Source of the DNA: a virus
Length of the DNA: 39,815 nucleotides
Virus record (IMG/VR): IMGVR_UViG_3300047560_000253
Coordinates: 1-39,815 of that record
Direction: 5' to 3' (one strand)
Each line of letters starts with the position of its first letter. Position 1 is the first letter of the stretch. Below, one piece after another: positions 31,707 through 39,644 of the stretch. The position numbers and the translations under genes were made by a program. A model generated the notes under the pieces. The model was given only the letters and a program-made list of their open reading frames with translations. It searched no databases and was not told where the DNA came from.

Positions 31707-32232
31707 TTTTGAAGACCTAACAGTGGAACACCTTGACGAAATGAACAAGGTTGTTGAACGATACCTGCAGGGTGAAGAGCCTACGCAGATTTCCAAAGAG
31801 CTTGCTCTGCCTCGTCAGAAGGTTGTTGCACATCTTAATCAATGGAAGGTGATGGCTGCAGACAATGCTGCTATTCGTGCTCGTGCCAAAGAAGCACTCG
31901 TAGCTGCTGACACACACTATAACAAACTAATTAGCAAAGCATACGAGGTCATGGATGATGCAACCACAACAGCCAACCTCAGTGCAAAGAACGGTGCTAT
32001 CAAGCTAGTCCTTGACATTGAGTCTAAGCGTATTGACATGCTACAGAAAGCTGGTCTGCTTGAGAACAAGGAACTCGCAGAAGAGATGATTGAGATTGAG
32101 CGTAAGCAGGATATCCTCAAGGGTATTCTGGCTGACATTGCCGCAGAGCACCCAGAGATCCGTGACAAGATTATGAGACGACTCTCTGACATTGCTAACA
32201 ACCAGGAGACGATTACAATTGTCCATGTTTAA
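31699..32232 (+). CDS. terS: Terminase small subunit, candidate
   Basis: 177 aa. The N-terminal ~55 residues form a helix-turn-helix (YLQGEEPTQISKELALPRQ, then VVAHLNQWK), and the rest is long helices with a Lys/Glu-rich middle (DIESKRIDMLQKAGLL, MIEIERKQDILKGIL) fit for ring oligomerisation. This order of HTH and helical assembly domain, directly before the large terminase with an 8-nt overlap, is typical of TerS, which recognises phage DNA for packaging. The family match is structural reasoning, not a clear sequence signature. Confidence 0.68.
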   Translation: MSNFEDLTVEHLDEMNKVVERYLQGEEPTQISKELALPRQKVVAHLNQWKVMAADNAAIRARAKEALVAADTHYNKLISKAYEVMDDATTTANLSAKNGAIKLVLDIESKRIDMLQKAGLLENKELAEEMIEIERKQDILKGILADIAAEHPEIRDKIMRRLSDIANNQETITIVHV

Positions 32233-34003
32233 TGAATTCTTTGAGGTCCTAAAAAGTTCTAACTTTGAAGAGATCCCAGTAGATGCTAAGACGTTTGTTG
32301 AGGGTGAAGACTATTTGGGTCAGCCACCACTGTCAAGCGTACAGTATGATGTGGTTGAGGCAATGAGCCAAATTTATAAGATTGATGACCTCATTGATTT
32401 GATGGGGGAAGAAGAGGGAAGACGCTATTACAAGAAGTATACAAAGAATGAAGTTATCCTACAGCTTGGTAAGGGGTCTGGTAAAGACTTTACCTCAACA
32501 GTTGCTTGTGCCTATATTGTATATAAACTACTTTGTCTTAAGGATCCTGCTAGATATTTTGGTAAGCCTAGTGGCGATGCTATCGACATTATTAACGTTG
32601 CTATCAACGCACAACAGGCAAAGAATGTTTTCTTCAAGGGCTTTAAGACTAAAATTGAGAAGTCTCCTTGGTTTGCAGGAAAGTTCTATGCTAAAGCAGA
32701 GAGCATTGAGTTTGATAAGTCTATCACTGTTTATTCAGGACACTCAGAACGAGAATCGCATGAGGGACTTAACCTTATCCTTGCGGTTCTTGATGAGATC
32801 TCTGGTTTTGCTACAGAGATTGGCACTGGAAACGATCAAGGTAAGACAGCAGATAACATCTATAAAGCATTCCGTGCGTCAGTTGACTCACGTTTCCCAG
32901 ACCTTGGCAAGGTAGCCCTACTGTCCTTCCCTCGTTTCCCTGGTGACTTTATCTCACAACGATACGATGCCGTTATTGCTGACAAGGATGTTATCCACAA
33001 GACTCATAAGTTTATTATGAATCCAGAACTACCAGAAGATGCTGAGGGCAACTCACTGGAGATTGAGTGGGATGAAGACAACATTCTTAACTACAAGTAT
33101 CCAGGAGTATTTGCACTAAAGAGACCTACCTGGGTAGTAAACCCTACTCGTAAGATTGACGACTTCAAGTTGGCATTCTTTACAGACATGGGTGATGCTA
33201 TGCAACGTTTTGCCTGTGTTCCTACATTCGCTTCAGATGCTTTCTTCAAGGACCGTGACAAGGTTCGTAGTGCAATGACAATTAGAAATCCACTGGACAG
33301 TGCTAAGAGATTTGACGAGGCATTCGTTCCTGATCCAGACAAGAAATACTTTGTCCATGCTGACCTTGCACAGAAGCATGACAAATGTGCTGTGGCAATT
33401 GCTCACGTAGAAAAGTGGGTAAACATTCAGGTTATCAAGGACTATGAGCAGATTGCACCAATCGTTGTAGTGGATGCTGTAGCCTGGTGGGAGCCACGCA
33501 TTGAAGGTCCTGTTAACCTATCAGAGGTTAAGCAGTGGATCCAAAACCTACGCAGACTTGGCTTTGATATTGGTATGGTGTCATTTGACCGTTGGAACTC
33601 ATTCGATATTCAGAACGAGCTTAAAGCTGTTGGTATGCGTACTGAGACTGTTTCTGTTGCCAAGAAGCATTATGAAGACCTTGCCATGCTTGTTTACGAA
33701 GACCGTCTTGTAATGCCCAACATAGAACTTTTGTTCGAAGAACTTACAGAACTCAAGATTGTAAAGCAGAACCGTGTAGATCACCCTAGAAAGCTTTCTA
33801 AGGACCTTGCAGACGCTGTCTGTGGTGCTGTGTTCGGAGCCATCTCCCACACGCCTAAAGACCAGAACACTGTAGTTGAGGTACACACATTTAAGGATCG
33901 TCCAAAGAGAACAGTTGACGAACTACCACAAAATGTGATACACTATACTCCTAGCCAAAAACAAGAACTACGAGATTTTGTAGACAACTTCGAATTGCTT
34001 TAG
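32225..34003 (+). CDS. terL: Terminase large subunit (ATPase and nuclease)
   Basis: 592 aa. ATPase domain: Walker A variant G82-K-G-S-G-K87-D in LQLGKGSGKDF, Walker B with D190-E191 in LILAVLDEISGF. RNase H-like nuclease: D380 (FVHADLAQKHDK), D455 (GMVSFDRWNS) and D530 (KDLADAVCGA), the three Asp positions expected. It pumps DNA into the procapsid through the portal and cuts the concatemer. I chose ATG 32225; a longer reading begins at TTG 32192, and another TTG at 32219 has AGGAG 10 nt upstream. The gene lies far from the capsid genes, after the replication block, unlike the usual order next to the portal. The 3' end carries a promoter for nrdI. Confidence 0.93.
   Translation: MFNEFFEVLKSSNFEEIPVDAKTFVEGEDYLGQPPLSSVQYDVVEAMSQIYKIDDLIDLMGEEEGRRYYKKYTKNEVILQLGKGSGKDFTSTVACAYIVYKLLCLKDPARYFGKPSGDAIDIINVAINAQQAKNVFFKGFKTKIEKSPWFAGKFYAKAESIEFDKSITVYSGHSERESHEGLNLILAVLDEISGFATEIGTGNDQGKTADNIYKAFRASVDSRFPDLGKVALLSFPRFPGDFISQRYDAVIADKDVIHKTHKFIMNPELPEDAEGNSLEIEWDEDNILNYKYPGVFALKRPTWVVNPTRKIDDFKLAFFTDMGDAMQRFACVPTFASDAFFKDRDKVRSAMTIRNPLDSAKRFDEAFVPDPDKKYFVHADLAQKHDKCAVAIAHVEKWVNIQVIKDYEQIAPIVVVDAVAWWEPRIEGPVNLSEVKQWIQNLRRLGFDIGMVSFDRWNSFDIQNELKAVGMRTETVSVAKKHYEDLAMLVYEDRLVMPNIELLFEELTELKIVKQNRVDHPRKLSKDLADAVCGAVFGAISHTPKDQNTVVEVHTFKDRPKRTVDELPQNVIHYTPSQKQELRDFVDNFELL
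33915..33944 (+). promoter_or_regulatory. Promoter upstream of nrdI, inside the terminase gene
   Basis: TTGACG (33915-33920), an 18-nt spacer and TACACT (33939-33944) with a TGA extension. The start would lie near 33951, about 60 nt before nrdI. An overlapping TATACT (33944-33949) could also serve. Moderate match. Confidence 0.5.
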
Positions 34004-37504: not shown

Positions 37505-37534
37505 GGGCTACTTCGGTAGCCCTTTCTTTTTTTT
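37505..37534 (+). terminator. Terminator with C(TTCG)G loop after nrdF
   Basis: GGGCTAC (37505-37511) and GTAGCCC (37516-37522) form a perfect 7-bp stem closed by the C-TTCG-G tetraloop, followed by TTTCTTTTTTTT. It closes the packaging/RNR unit. Confidence 0.93.
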
Positions 37535-37541
37535 ATACTAG

Positions 37542-37550
37542 TGGTATAAT
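37542..37550 (+). promoter_or_regulatory. Extended -10 promoter of the envelope cassette
   Basis: TGG-TATAAT lies directly behind the terminator. Start is expected at about 37557, the first base of an inverted repeat. A second TATACT at 37534-37539 overlaps the terminator tail. No clear -35. Confidence 0.68.
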
Positions 37551-37575: not shown

Positions 37576-37590
37576 TATAGGAGACAGGAA

Positions 37591-39171
37591 ATTAGACGAT
37601 TAGCACACTCAATAATAGTTGCAGCAATAGTCTTGCTTATGGTATTTTGGGGAGACCCTGCACATGCACAAACAAGGGCAGAGTATAACCAGATAGTAGC
37701 AGAAGCACAGGCTAAGGTTTCTGCTGCTCAGAATGCCCTACAACAGGCAGAGCAAGCACATCTAGAGGCGGTACAAAGAGGTCAGTCTCTACAAGAGGAA
37801 ATAGCAATTGCACAAGAAGAACTTGCACAAGCACAAACAGATTATGAACAAGCCCTAATTCCAGATCCAACGTGGATCAGACCAACAAAAGAAATACAGG
37901 TTTCAGAGCAGGTTTCGCACACTATTCAAGTGCCACACACAGAGACAATAAGAGAGGTCACGCTAGTACCCAGAGAGGTAACTACGCTGATTCCTGGTGG
38001 ACTTATAGCAAAATCCTACAATATGCAAGGATACAATAATGCACCACCTTTACCTGGAGAAAACAGATTAGTATCTACACTTAACGTTCCTAATATCAAT
38101 TATGATTGGGGTGGTGGACAGATTCTAAATTCAGGATTATACGAAGATGTCATTGTTAACTTTAGTGGAAATATACAAATACCAAGTACAGGAACATACT
38201 ACTTTTACGCACCAGGAGACGATGGGATTAAGTTAATTATCGATGGCAATACTATCATTAATGACTGGTATGACAAAGGCGGAGGTGGCTCAACAACATC
38301 CCTTTACTTGACAGAGGGCAGCCACACGATAACGCTATGGTTCTATGAGAACGGTGGTGGGGCAAACGTCTGGCTATACTGGGCAAAGCCAGGGTATGGT
38401 TGGGAGATTGTCCCATCATCACAATTCGGAACACAGACAGTAACAGAAACAGTATATGATGAAGTAGTTACCTACACAGACGTAACCACATACACAGAAG
38501 AAATCATTTATGAAACTGTTTGGCATACAGAGACCGTGCTTGATATGGATGCGATTCAGCCAGAGATGCAAAACCCAGAACTATTCGTAATCGTAAATGA
38601 AAAACAAACTAATCTAGATACTTTGATAGAACAACAGTCAAACAATTCACTAACAATACAGTCAACCTCAGACGATATCGAAGTAAAAAAACAGGAATTG
38701 CTTACAGCACAAAATGATTTAAACAGCATACCAGAATATGTAGAGCCAACACCAGAGCCTGAGCCAACACCAGAGCCAGTTGTAGAACCAGTACCAGTTG
38801 TAGAGCCAGTGGTAGAAGAAAAGACAGAGGCAGAGGTGCAACTAGAGGAACGATCAGTCCAAAACGATACAGGAGTTCTTCCATACACAATGGCAGATGT
38901 GACTACAGAATTACAGGCAGAAGAAGTTATAAACGCTCTGACAGACCCTACAGCCCTTGCTGGGGCTATTTCTGAGGGTATAGCAGAGACAGCAGCATTC
39001 GTAGGAGAGCTACTTACAGAGCCAGGAAAGGCAGTAGCAGAAGTATTTAAAAACGTGTCTCAGGCAGGTCTGGATATGACAGACGATCAGCGTGAGAAAG
39101 CACAAGAAGTCATCGTGCCTGTGGTCATCGTATCACAAATTGCAAGCATGATGGTAGGGAGAATAAGGTGA
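37591..39171 (+). CDS. Secreted PA14-domain protein with C-terminal membrane anchor
   Basis: 526 aa if started at ATT 37591, which has AGGAGA 6 nt upstream and gives a textbook signal peptide (MRRLAHS, a 14-residue hydrophobic core, DPAHA then Q); an in-frame TTG at 37555 or GTG at 37561 would add 12 or 10 residues inside the 5' hairpin. Then: Ala/Gln/Glu-rich coiled coil (about 27-85); Thr/Val-rich strands flanking a PA14-type beta barrel (about 133-277, with the calcium-site-like GDDGIKLIIDG); a second coiled coil; a TPEPEP-type proline spacer (about 390-410); and a hydrophobic end (VIVPVVIVSQIASMMVG then RIR) like a membrane anchor. PA14 domains often bind carbohydrate. The protein should sit on the outer face of the host membrane. 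Role unknown; not a recognisable endolysin. Confidence 0.72.
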   Translation: MRRLAHSIIVAAIVLLMVFWGDPAHAQTRAEYNQIVAEAQAKVSAAQNALQQAEQAHLEAVQRGQSLQEEIAIAQEELAQAQTDYEQALIPDPTWIRPTKEIQVSEQVSHTIQVPHTETIREVTLVPREVTTLIPGGLIAKSYNMQGYNNAPPLPGENRLVSTLNVPNINYDWGGGQILNSGLYEDVIVNFSGNIQIPSTGTYYFYAPGDDGIKLIIDGNTIINDWYDKGGGGSTTSLYLTEGSHTITLWFYENGGGANVWLYWAKPGYGWEIVPSSQFGTQTVTETVYDEVVTYTDVTTYTEEIIYETVWHTETVLDMDAIQPEMQNPELFVIVNEKQTNLDTLIEQQSNNSLTIQSTSDDIEVKKQELLTAQNDLNSIPEYVEPTPEPEPTPEPVVEPVPVVEPVVEEKTEAEVQLEERSVQNDTGVLPYTMADVTTELQAEEVINALTDPTALAGAISEGIAETAAFVGELLTEPGKAVAEVFKNVSQAGLDMTDDQREKAQEVIVPVVIVSQIASMMVGRIR

Positions 39172-39371
39172 AAATAATTAAATCAATATTCAGGTGGATT
39201 GCAGATGTTTTCAAAGAAAGCATTAACCAGATATTCACCCTACTGGGGTTCTTCATTGCATGGCTAACTCTGACAGGGTCTGCTAGAGATATTGTGGGTA
39301 TAGCAATTATTTGGTCAACTGTAATCTGGCTGATCACAATTAATCTAAGAAAAGATAAGGAGGACAAATAA
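39168..39371 (+). CDS. Small two-helix membrane protein, holin candidate
   Basis: 67 aa from a GTG start overlapping the previous stop (GTGA). Two hydrophobic helices are evident: IFTLLGFFIAWLTLTGS (about 22-38) and IVGIAIIWSTVIWLITI (about 42-58). The N-terminus is basic-amphipathic (KIIKSIFRWIADVFK) and the C-terminus is charged (RKDKEDK), the usual topology of class II holins or accessory lysis proteins. Its place before another small hydrophobic protein supports a lysis-related role, but no endolysin gene is within view. Confidence 0.6.
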   Translation: MKIIKSIFRWIADVFKESINQIFTLLGFFIAWLTLTGSARDIVGIAIIWSTVIWLITINLRKDKEDK

Positions 39372-39607
39372 TGAACTACGCAAAAATCGCAAAGCGTATG
39401 CTTGCACTATTCATCGTATCAGCATTGACAACTATTGGTGCTGGTGCTATCATTGGTATTGACACAGTACAGACTGCTATTCTAGCAGGTGTAATGGGTA
39501 TTGCTAATGTAGTCGAAGATCTTGCTCGTGGCTATCTGAATGACGGAGAGCTATCTGACGAAGAAATCGATGCAGCATTCGTTGACAACACTCCAGAAGA
39601 AGACTAA
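39371..39607 (+). CDS. Small membrane protein, holin-like
   Basis: 78 aa, ATG overlapping the previous TAA and with an AAGGAGG-type site just upstream. It has a basic start (NYAKIAKRM), then hydrophobic helices LALFIVSALTTIGAGAIIG and VQTAILAGVMGIANVV, and a very acidic end (LSDEEIDAAFVDNTPEED). Proteins of this form (two helices, acidic tail) are frequent next to lysis genes of actinophages and are usually called holins. Function is inferred from topology and context. Confidence 0.62.
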   Translation: MNYAKIAKRMLALFIVSALTTIGAGAIIGIDTVQTAILAGVMGIANVVEDLARGYLNDGELSDEEIDAAFVDNTPEED

Positions 39608-39615
39608 AAACCTTC

Positions 39616-39644
39616 TTGACAAGACCCTTTCTAGGCTGTATAAT
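39616..39644 (+). promoter_or_regulatory. Consensus promoter of the last gene
   Basis: TTGACA (39616-39621), 17-nt spacer, TATAAT (39639-39644). Both boxes are perfect, among the best in the window. Start expected near 39651. The -10 lies in the loop of an inverted repeat. Confidence 0.85.

Follow-up and report, generated by a model that had tools for sequence, protein, structure and literature searches.

The closest described counterparts of the protein presented here are sugar-binding PA14 proteins, i.e., MpAFP and other RTX adhesins, the yeast proteins Flo5 and Epa1, and RsgI3. These have in common with it the fold, an Asp-Asp motif and the setting of a glycan-facing adhesin. In contrast to those lectins, the protein, here termed lollipop, is phage-encoded, is modeled with its head on a hairpin stalk and has a virus-specific anchor, and its sugar binding is only predicted. 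A second comparison is with the streptococcal antigen I/II adhesins, where two distant chain segments, one helix and one PPII, form a stalk that carries a head at its tip. The tip-head plan is alike, but the lollipop arms are helix with helix plus beta with beta, and the likeness is one of architecture. Set against these adhesins, an LPxTG-type motif before the C-terminal helix is rare in the lollipop family (1 of 134 tails).

Two phage systems should also be considered. In Corynebacterium phages, the membrane protein LysZ has been proposed to promote efficient lysis by acting on envelope glycans (PMC13056207). Compared by description, it resembles lollipop in its actinophage origin, its membrane anchor and the proposed glycan role in lysis; LysZ itself is 177 aa with a proposed N-in/C-out orientation, and has no known relation to lollipop. 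LysF1a/LysF1b of F1 mycobacteriophages (PMC13056207) represent a small two-TM protein beside a single-TM N-out/C-in protein, as is predicted for TM1 and lollipop described below. However, LysF1b does not have the large outer domain of lollipop, and no detectable sequence match was found. In addition, a secreted phage PA14 cargo has been reported for Cryophage (PMC7468147).

Anatomy of the lollipop protein

The sequence analyzed (the window) is a stretch of 39,815 nt, positions 1 to 39,815 of IMG/VR record IMGVR_UViG_3300047560_000253. Features are listed in Table 1, with coordinates on the given strand.

Table 1. Features of the lollipop gene and its immediate surroundings in the window.
Feature	Position	Strand	Basis
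Intrinsic terminator after RNR genes (nrdA/nrdB)	37505..37532	+	GGGCTAC-TTCG-GTAGCCC, 7-bp stem, TTCG loop, T-run
Extended -10 promoter element TGGTATAAT	37542..37550	+	read directly
Shine-Dalgarno AGGAG, 7 nt before ATT	37579..37583	+	sequence
Inferred start codon ATT	37591..37593	+	family-wide start analysis
Lollipop gene (surface protein, 526 aa)	37591..39171	+	frame 37591-39168 plus stop; Pfam; relatives; AlphaFold
Predicted signal peptide, residues 1-26 (AHA/Q)	37591..37668	+	hydropathy; SPase I-like site read directly
Stalk helix, N arm, residues 29-87	37675..37851	+	AlphaFold; length co-variation with C arm
Stalk beta arm, N side, residues 99-134	37885..37992	+	AlphaFold; length co-variation
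PA14 tip domain, residues 138-280; Asp-Asp-Gly at 210-212	38002..38430	+	Pfam, Foldseek, 6m8m alignment, invariant columns
Stalk beta arm, C side, residues 282-317	38434..38541	+	AlphaFold; length co-variation
Stalk helix, C arm, residues 329-378	38575..38724	+	AlphaFold; length co-variation
Pro-rich spacer	38776..38865	+	sequence
Conserved virus-specific C-terminal module, motifs PYTxAD..TE and DMTxDQREKAQE	38872..39168	+	alignments, scans
Terminal hydrophobic segment, then basic tail, inside C-terminal module	39109-39159	+	hydropathy
TM1, 67-aa two-TM partner; GTG overlaps lollipop stop	39168..39371	+	profile search, start analysis
TM2, 78-aa two-TM holin-like protein	39371..39607	+	PHROG matches; adjoins family in relatives

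The order of parts, i.e., signal peptide, helix, beta arm, PA14, beta arm, helix, Pro-rich spacer and C-terminal module, is assigned with high confidence. A sequence-only reading of the window had described a surface-anchored protein with a signal peptide, two coiled coils, a PA14 domain, a Pro-rich spacer and a C-terminal anchor, and all of these are present. The hairpin plan, two 36-residue beta arms, the ATT first codon and the universal pairing with TM1 in the sample go beyond that reading.

The hydrophobic core of the putative signal peptide has a 17-aa hydropathy of 2.51 and lies ahead of the AHA and Q residues of the cleavage site, and the C-terminal hydrophobic segment (residues 507-523) has a hydropathy of 2.19 and is followed by an RIR tail. 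A hydrophobic C-terminus is found in 134 of 134 relatives, and at least two K/R are found among the last six residues in 133 of these. Cleavage of the signal peptide and membrane anchoring by the stop-transfer-like C-terminus are predicted from these sequence properties, and surface display is the best supported part of the interpretation. Sortase anchoring was rejected; there is no LPxTG, and the conserved PYTxAD, ~85 residues before the end, is not read as a sorting signal.

The PA14 domain is detected by Pfam PF07691 (E 5e-10; 39.8 bits, with a gathering cut-off of 24). In a phmmer search of PDB sequences the domain is matched by RsgI3 (3e-16) and by the RTX-adhesin PA14 6m8m (2e-7). The fold search proposed in the sequence-only reading, performed with AlphaFold and Foldseek, points to a lectin-type PA14 head, with matches to RsgI3, Epa1, Flo5 and the Marinomonas sugar-binding PA14. 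The residues DDG at 210-212 are invariant in a 19-sequence alignment and align with the DDG of 6m8m; thus the adjacent Asp-Asp of the calcium/sugar site of sugar-binding PA14 domains is present in lollipop. By analogy with these lectins, the head may bind glycans of the host envelope. DDG is absent from 33 of 134 sequences (about a quarter), some of which are fragments. Some complete members among these display other heads that match no assigned type, and extra Fn3 domains are also present in the family. Thus the head appears to be exchangeable.

Several other matches were discarded. The PHROG "major head protein" match (E 2.5e-5) covers the PA14 part only, and the Phage_portal_3 match (0.0038) is under its gathering score. 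A spanin assignment was rejected, as the Rz-like PHROG matches are weak (E 0.05-0.9), are to the N-terminal hydrophobic/coiled-coil part and reflect coiled-coil composition. Searches with lollipop gave no match to muralytic or known tail families.

An AlphaFold model was built with 19 relatives and places two helices, two strands and the PA14 domain between them at the limits in Table 1. The pLDDT values are mostly >90 in the stalk helices and mostly 77-92 in PA14, with parts of the beta arms at 55-84. The tail is not resolved in the full model, and the C-terminal module modeled alone (pLDDT 55) is uninformative. The model suggests that the helices pair with each other, as do the beta arms, to form one hairpin.

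Arm lengths in relatives, measured between alignment anchors, provide an independent assay of the pairing. The N and C beta arms are 47/51, 59/62, 101/105, 65/69, 40/45 and 13/15 residues, and the helix arms are 66/63 or 87/84, so that both helices differ by the same 21 residues, i.e., three heptads. The N and C arm lengths correlate with r of 0.87 for beta and 0.975 for helix arms in 17 sequences, which are related and some of which have a helix instead of a beta arm beyond PA14. Thus the modeled pairing and the co-variation in length both argue for a hairpin stalk with the PA14 head at its tip, a lollipop-like form.

Membrane partners and the endolysin

TM1 is found directly 3′ of the family gene in 129 of 129 relatives and TM2 follows in 108 of 120, both by profile search; it should be noted that the loci are mostly related metagenome contigs, so that these counts are not independent events and gene order may be inherited. 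TM1 was counted by profile because longer antisense ORFs overlap it. A reverse search with TM1 gave 80 loci, where the family gene is upstream in 75 and the contig ends at the other 5; the pairing therefore holds in 75 of 75 testable loci. TM1 begins no more than a few bases from the stop codon of lollipop, which it often overlaps. The sequence-only reading had viewed the gene as its own unit, expressed with two small membrane proteins after the RNR terminator, and asked whether relatives always show this pairing. The elements of such a unit are present, i.e., the terminator stem-loop and T-run, TGGTATAAT and the two membrane genes in Table 1, and the pairing is supported, in all relatives for TM1 and in most for TM2.

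A CHAP endolysin (Pfam E 3e-11) is nearby in 16 of the 17 loci that have >5 kb on both sides. In close relatives of the window it is one to several genes from TM2, and in locus L008 lollipop, TM1, TM2 and CHAP are in a row, with the other genes of the locus differing. TM2 matches PHROG 443, holin, weakly (E 0.008) and PHROG 26427 with E 1e-22; the "nuclease" label of the latter is implausible for a 78-aa two-TM protein.

A perfect sigma-70 consensus promoter, TTGACA-17-TATAAT, is present at 39616-39644 of the window, just past TM2 and ahead of a small acidic conserved protein. Thus the lollipop-TM1-TM2 unit appears to be bounded.

Promoter and start codon

Upstream of the gene, 92 of 102 relatives carry the extended -10 element TGNTATAAT and 99 of 102 carry TATAAT, compared with 9 expected from shuffled sequences, at a median of 44 nt before the start. 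In the close relatives L002, L004 and L005 the frame is closed just upstream, so that only ATT/ATA are left as start codons, and close relatives show Ile or Leu followed by Lys/Arg at the expected start.

Starts were called by SD and signal-peptide (hydropathy) rules in 107 unique, 5′-complete members. The called codons are ATT (44), TTG (33), ATA (19), ATC (5) and CTG (2), with 4 unclear and no ATG. In 62 of 107 members, the stretch from the in-frame stop to the signal-peptide core contains no ATG/GTG/TTG, and in 42 members none is found for 30 codons or more past the stop. AT[TAC] follows straight after a stop in 9 members, and the called codon lies at a regular distance from the SD. In L055, a freshwater member, an ATG is present two codons ahead of the called ATT. 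At the same 107 loci TM1 starts with ATG (103) or GTG (4). Among neighboring genes with a strong SD, ATG is called in 266 of 339 and a near-cognate codon in 37 of 339 by a similar mechanical call; some of these 37 are surely chance, and a few in the lollipop family may be likewise. A tree of 98 tails requires at least 30 changes of start codon, none of them involving an ATG state; recombination can inflate this count, and most forks of the tree are weak.

The non-AUG starts could be miscalls, with the real start a canonical upstream codon or a frameshift from another gene. The window does have in-frame TTG (37555) and GTG (37561) codons upstream of ATT; however, these coincide with the expected start of transcription and lack an SD. 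The members that lack a canonical codon, those with AT[TAC] directly after a stop and the regular SD spacing all make miscalling very unlikely.

Further freshwater-type members, found through TM1 alone, have TTG, ATT or ATA. However, the TM1-based scan also revealed a distant clade of about 12 members (L184-L192, L244, L250, L252, L258), likely of marine origin, with GTG or ATG and one CTG/TTG case, and a non-AUG rule for the whole family was dropped. Thus the avoidance of ATG is a trait of the large freshwater-type clade, and the family can do without a weak start.

IF3 discriminates against ATT, ATC and ATA starts (PMC4611024); in the classical sense, TTG is not among the codons affected. 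The combination of a strong promoter, a strong SD and a weak start suggests, from sequence, that the dosage of lollipop is controlled relative to TM1 and TM2 on one mRNA.

Distribution of the family and host

In IMG/VR, at least 588 relatives are found by the whole protein and at least 568, in viral contigs, by the C-terminal module. A scan of 84,980 prokaryote genomes with the C-terminal module gave one contig, L101. This contig was assigned to a gammaproteobacterial MAG, encodes the lollipop C-terminus and TM1 amid genes that look phage-like, and is probably a phage contig. TM1 and the C-terminal module have no match in 50,697 phage records, and the whole lollipop matches only PA14 parts of three records in the cultured-phage collection. 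A large and virus-specific family is strongly supported by these scans.

PA14 proteins of uncultured Caudovirales (BFVD; UniProt A0A6J7WSJ6 and others) match with a Foldseek E of 2e-34 and probably belong to the lollipop family or are close kin. These entries are annotated by domain only, and no description of the anchor, partner or start codon was found. The sequence-only reading had considered such a protein unusual in a phage gene. This stands in part: the Caudovirales matches and the Cryophage cargo speak against it, and the size and virus specificity of the family speak for it. No account of the family was found in the open-access literature searched, which does not show that none exists.

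TerL (window 32192-34003) shares 54-58% identity with its counterparts in large Streptomyces phages, including Stanwilliamsviridae, and one relative encodes WhiB. Thus an actinobacterial host is indicated. GC content is 42%, and the host may be a freshwater actinobacterium of the Nanopelagicales type.

Possible functions

The explanation that best accounts for the whole, proposed here tentatively, is that lollipop is a membrane-anchored surface lectin of the late/lysis neighborhood that engages host envelope glycans. Lollipop would be secreted, lose its signal peptide and stay anchored in the membrane of the infected actinobacterial cell. The chain would run outward, first helical and next as a beta strand, to the PA14 head, which would bind the envelope glycans, and would return through a beta ladder, an antiparallel coiled coil and the Pro-rich spacer. 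The C-terminal module and stop-transfer helix would be held together with TM1, which is translationally coupled to lollipop. The strong extended -10, strong SD and AUU would keep lollipop scarce relative to TM1 and TM2, which have their own ATG or GTG starts. Late in infection lollipop, with TM1 and the holin-like TM2, would engage surface glycans or loosen them, which would allow the endolysin to open the cell.

The holin-like genes and the nearby endolysin favor this late or lysis role, although nearness of genes does not establish function, whereas the long variable stalk favors an outward role such as receptor masking; its variable length suggests work outside the wall that is not obviously needed by lysis. 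Masking is thus a close rival, whereby lollipop would extend past the wall, bind the receptor glycan and hide it from later phages (superinfection exclusion). A lectin-type head on a stalk that varies two-fold or more in length, heads that swap while the anchor stays, and a promoter of its own with a weak start, which would suit a low and constant supply, are consistent with exclusion, and the same guess was published for the Cryophage cargo (PMC7468147). However, holin-like and endolysin genes are close by, the sequence offers no reason for a need of TM2, and known exclusion proteins do not appear among the matches seen. Exclusion is considered possible, if on the whole unlikely.

Lollipop could also make infected cells or debris stick to each other, to particles or to predators, and so aid the spread of progeny. 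Among solved structures, the nearest PA14 folds include lectin heads from yeast flocculins, Epa adhesins and the Marinomonas ice adhesin, but the gain for a lytic phage of free-living plankton is not evident, and such a role is improbable. That lollipop is a virion component, a fibre or head decoration, is highly improbable: many phage structural proteins have lectin-like domains and the weak PHROG major head protein match is over the PA14 part, but a cleavable signal peptide and stop-transfer C-terminus have no use in cytoplasmic virion assembly, and the gene lies outside the tail gene block and is served by a promoter of its own.

Apart from its function, there is about an even chance that lollipop represents a virus-only display system, made up of an exchangeable head, a two-armed stalk, and a C-terminal module with an obligate two-TM partner, and translated weakly from selected non-AUG starts (AUU/AUA/AUC/UUG/CUG) under a strong promoter and SD. 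If so, initiation in this phage gene family is conserved and largely IF3-sensitive, and the family is misannotated wherever gene callers accept only ATG/GTG/TTG; with hundreds of members, standard gene calling truncates or misses the genes that start with AUU or AUA. The family may show how phages of freshwater actinobacteria remodel the surface of the infected cell. It makes testable a setting of stoichiometry by IF3-sensitive starts within a phage operon, as well as a role of lectin-like surface proteins in lysis or exclusion in monoderm hosts.

Other neighboring genes

In L180 (Actinomycetia phage DSL-LC01) a TM2-like gene is found shortly after ribonucleotide reductase, and neither lollipop nor TM1 lies between them. 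Upstream of the family gene, 62 of 99 relatives (e.g., L057 624-2057) encode another secreted coiled-coil protein of ~379 aa, with a signal peptide and an ATG start, which has no informative Pfam or PHROG match. Conserved downstream neighbors in many relatives are a subtilase (S8, Pfam E 1e-16) whose N-terminus resembles a signal peptide, as well as an HslV/proteasome-like peptidase, e.g., L028 14438-15367 and L075 9913-10506.
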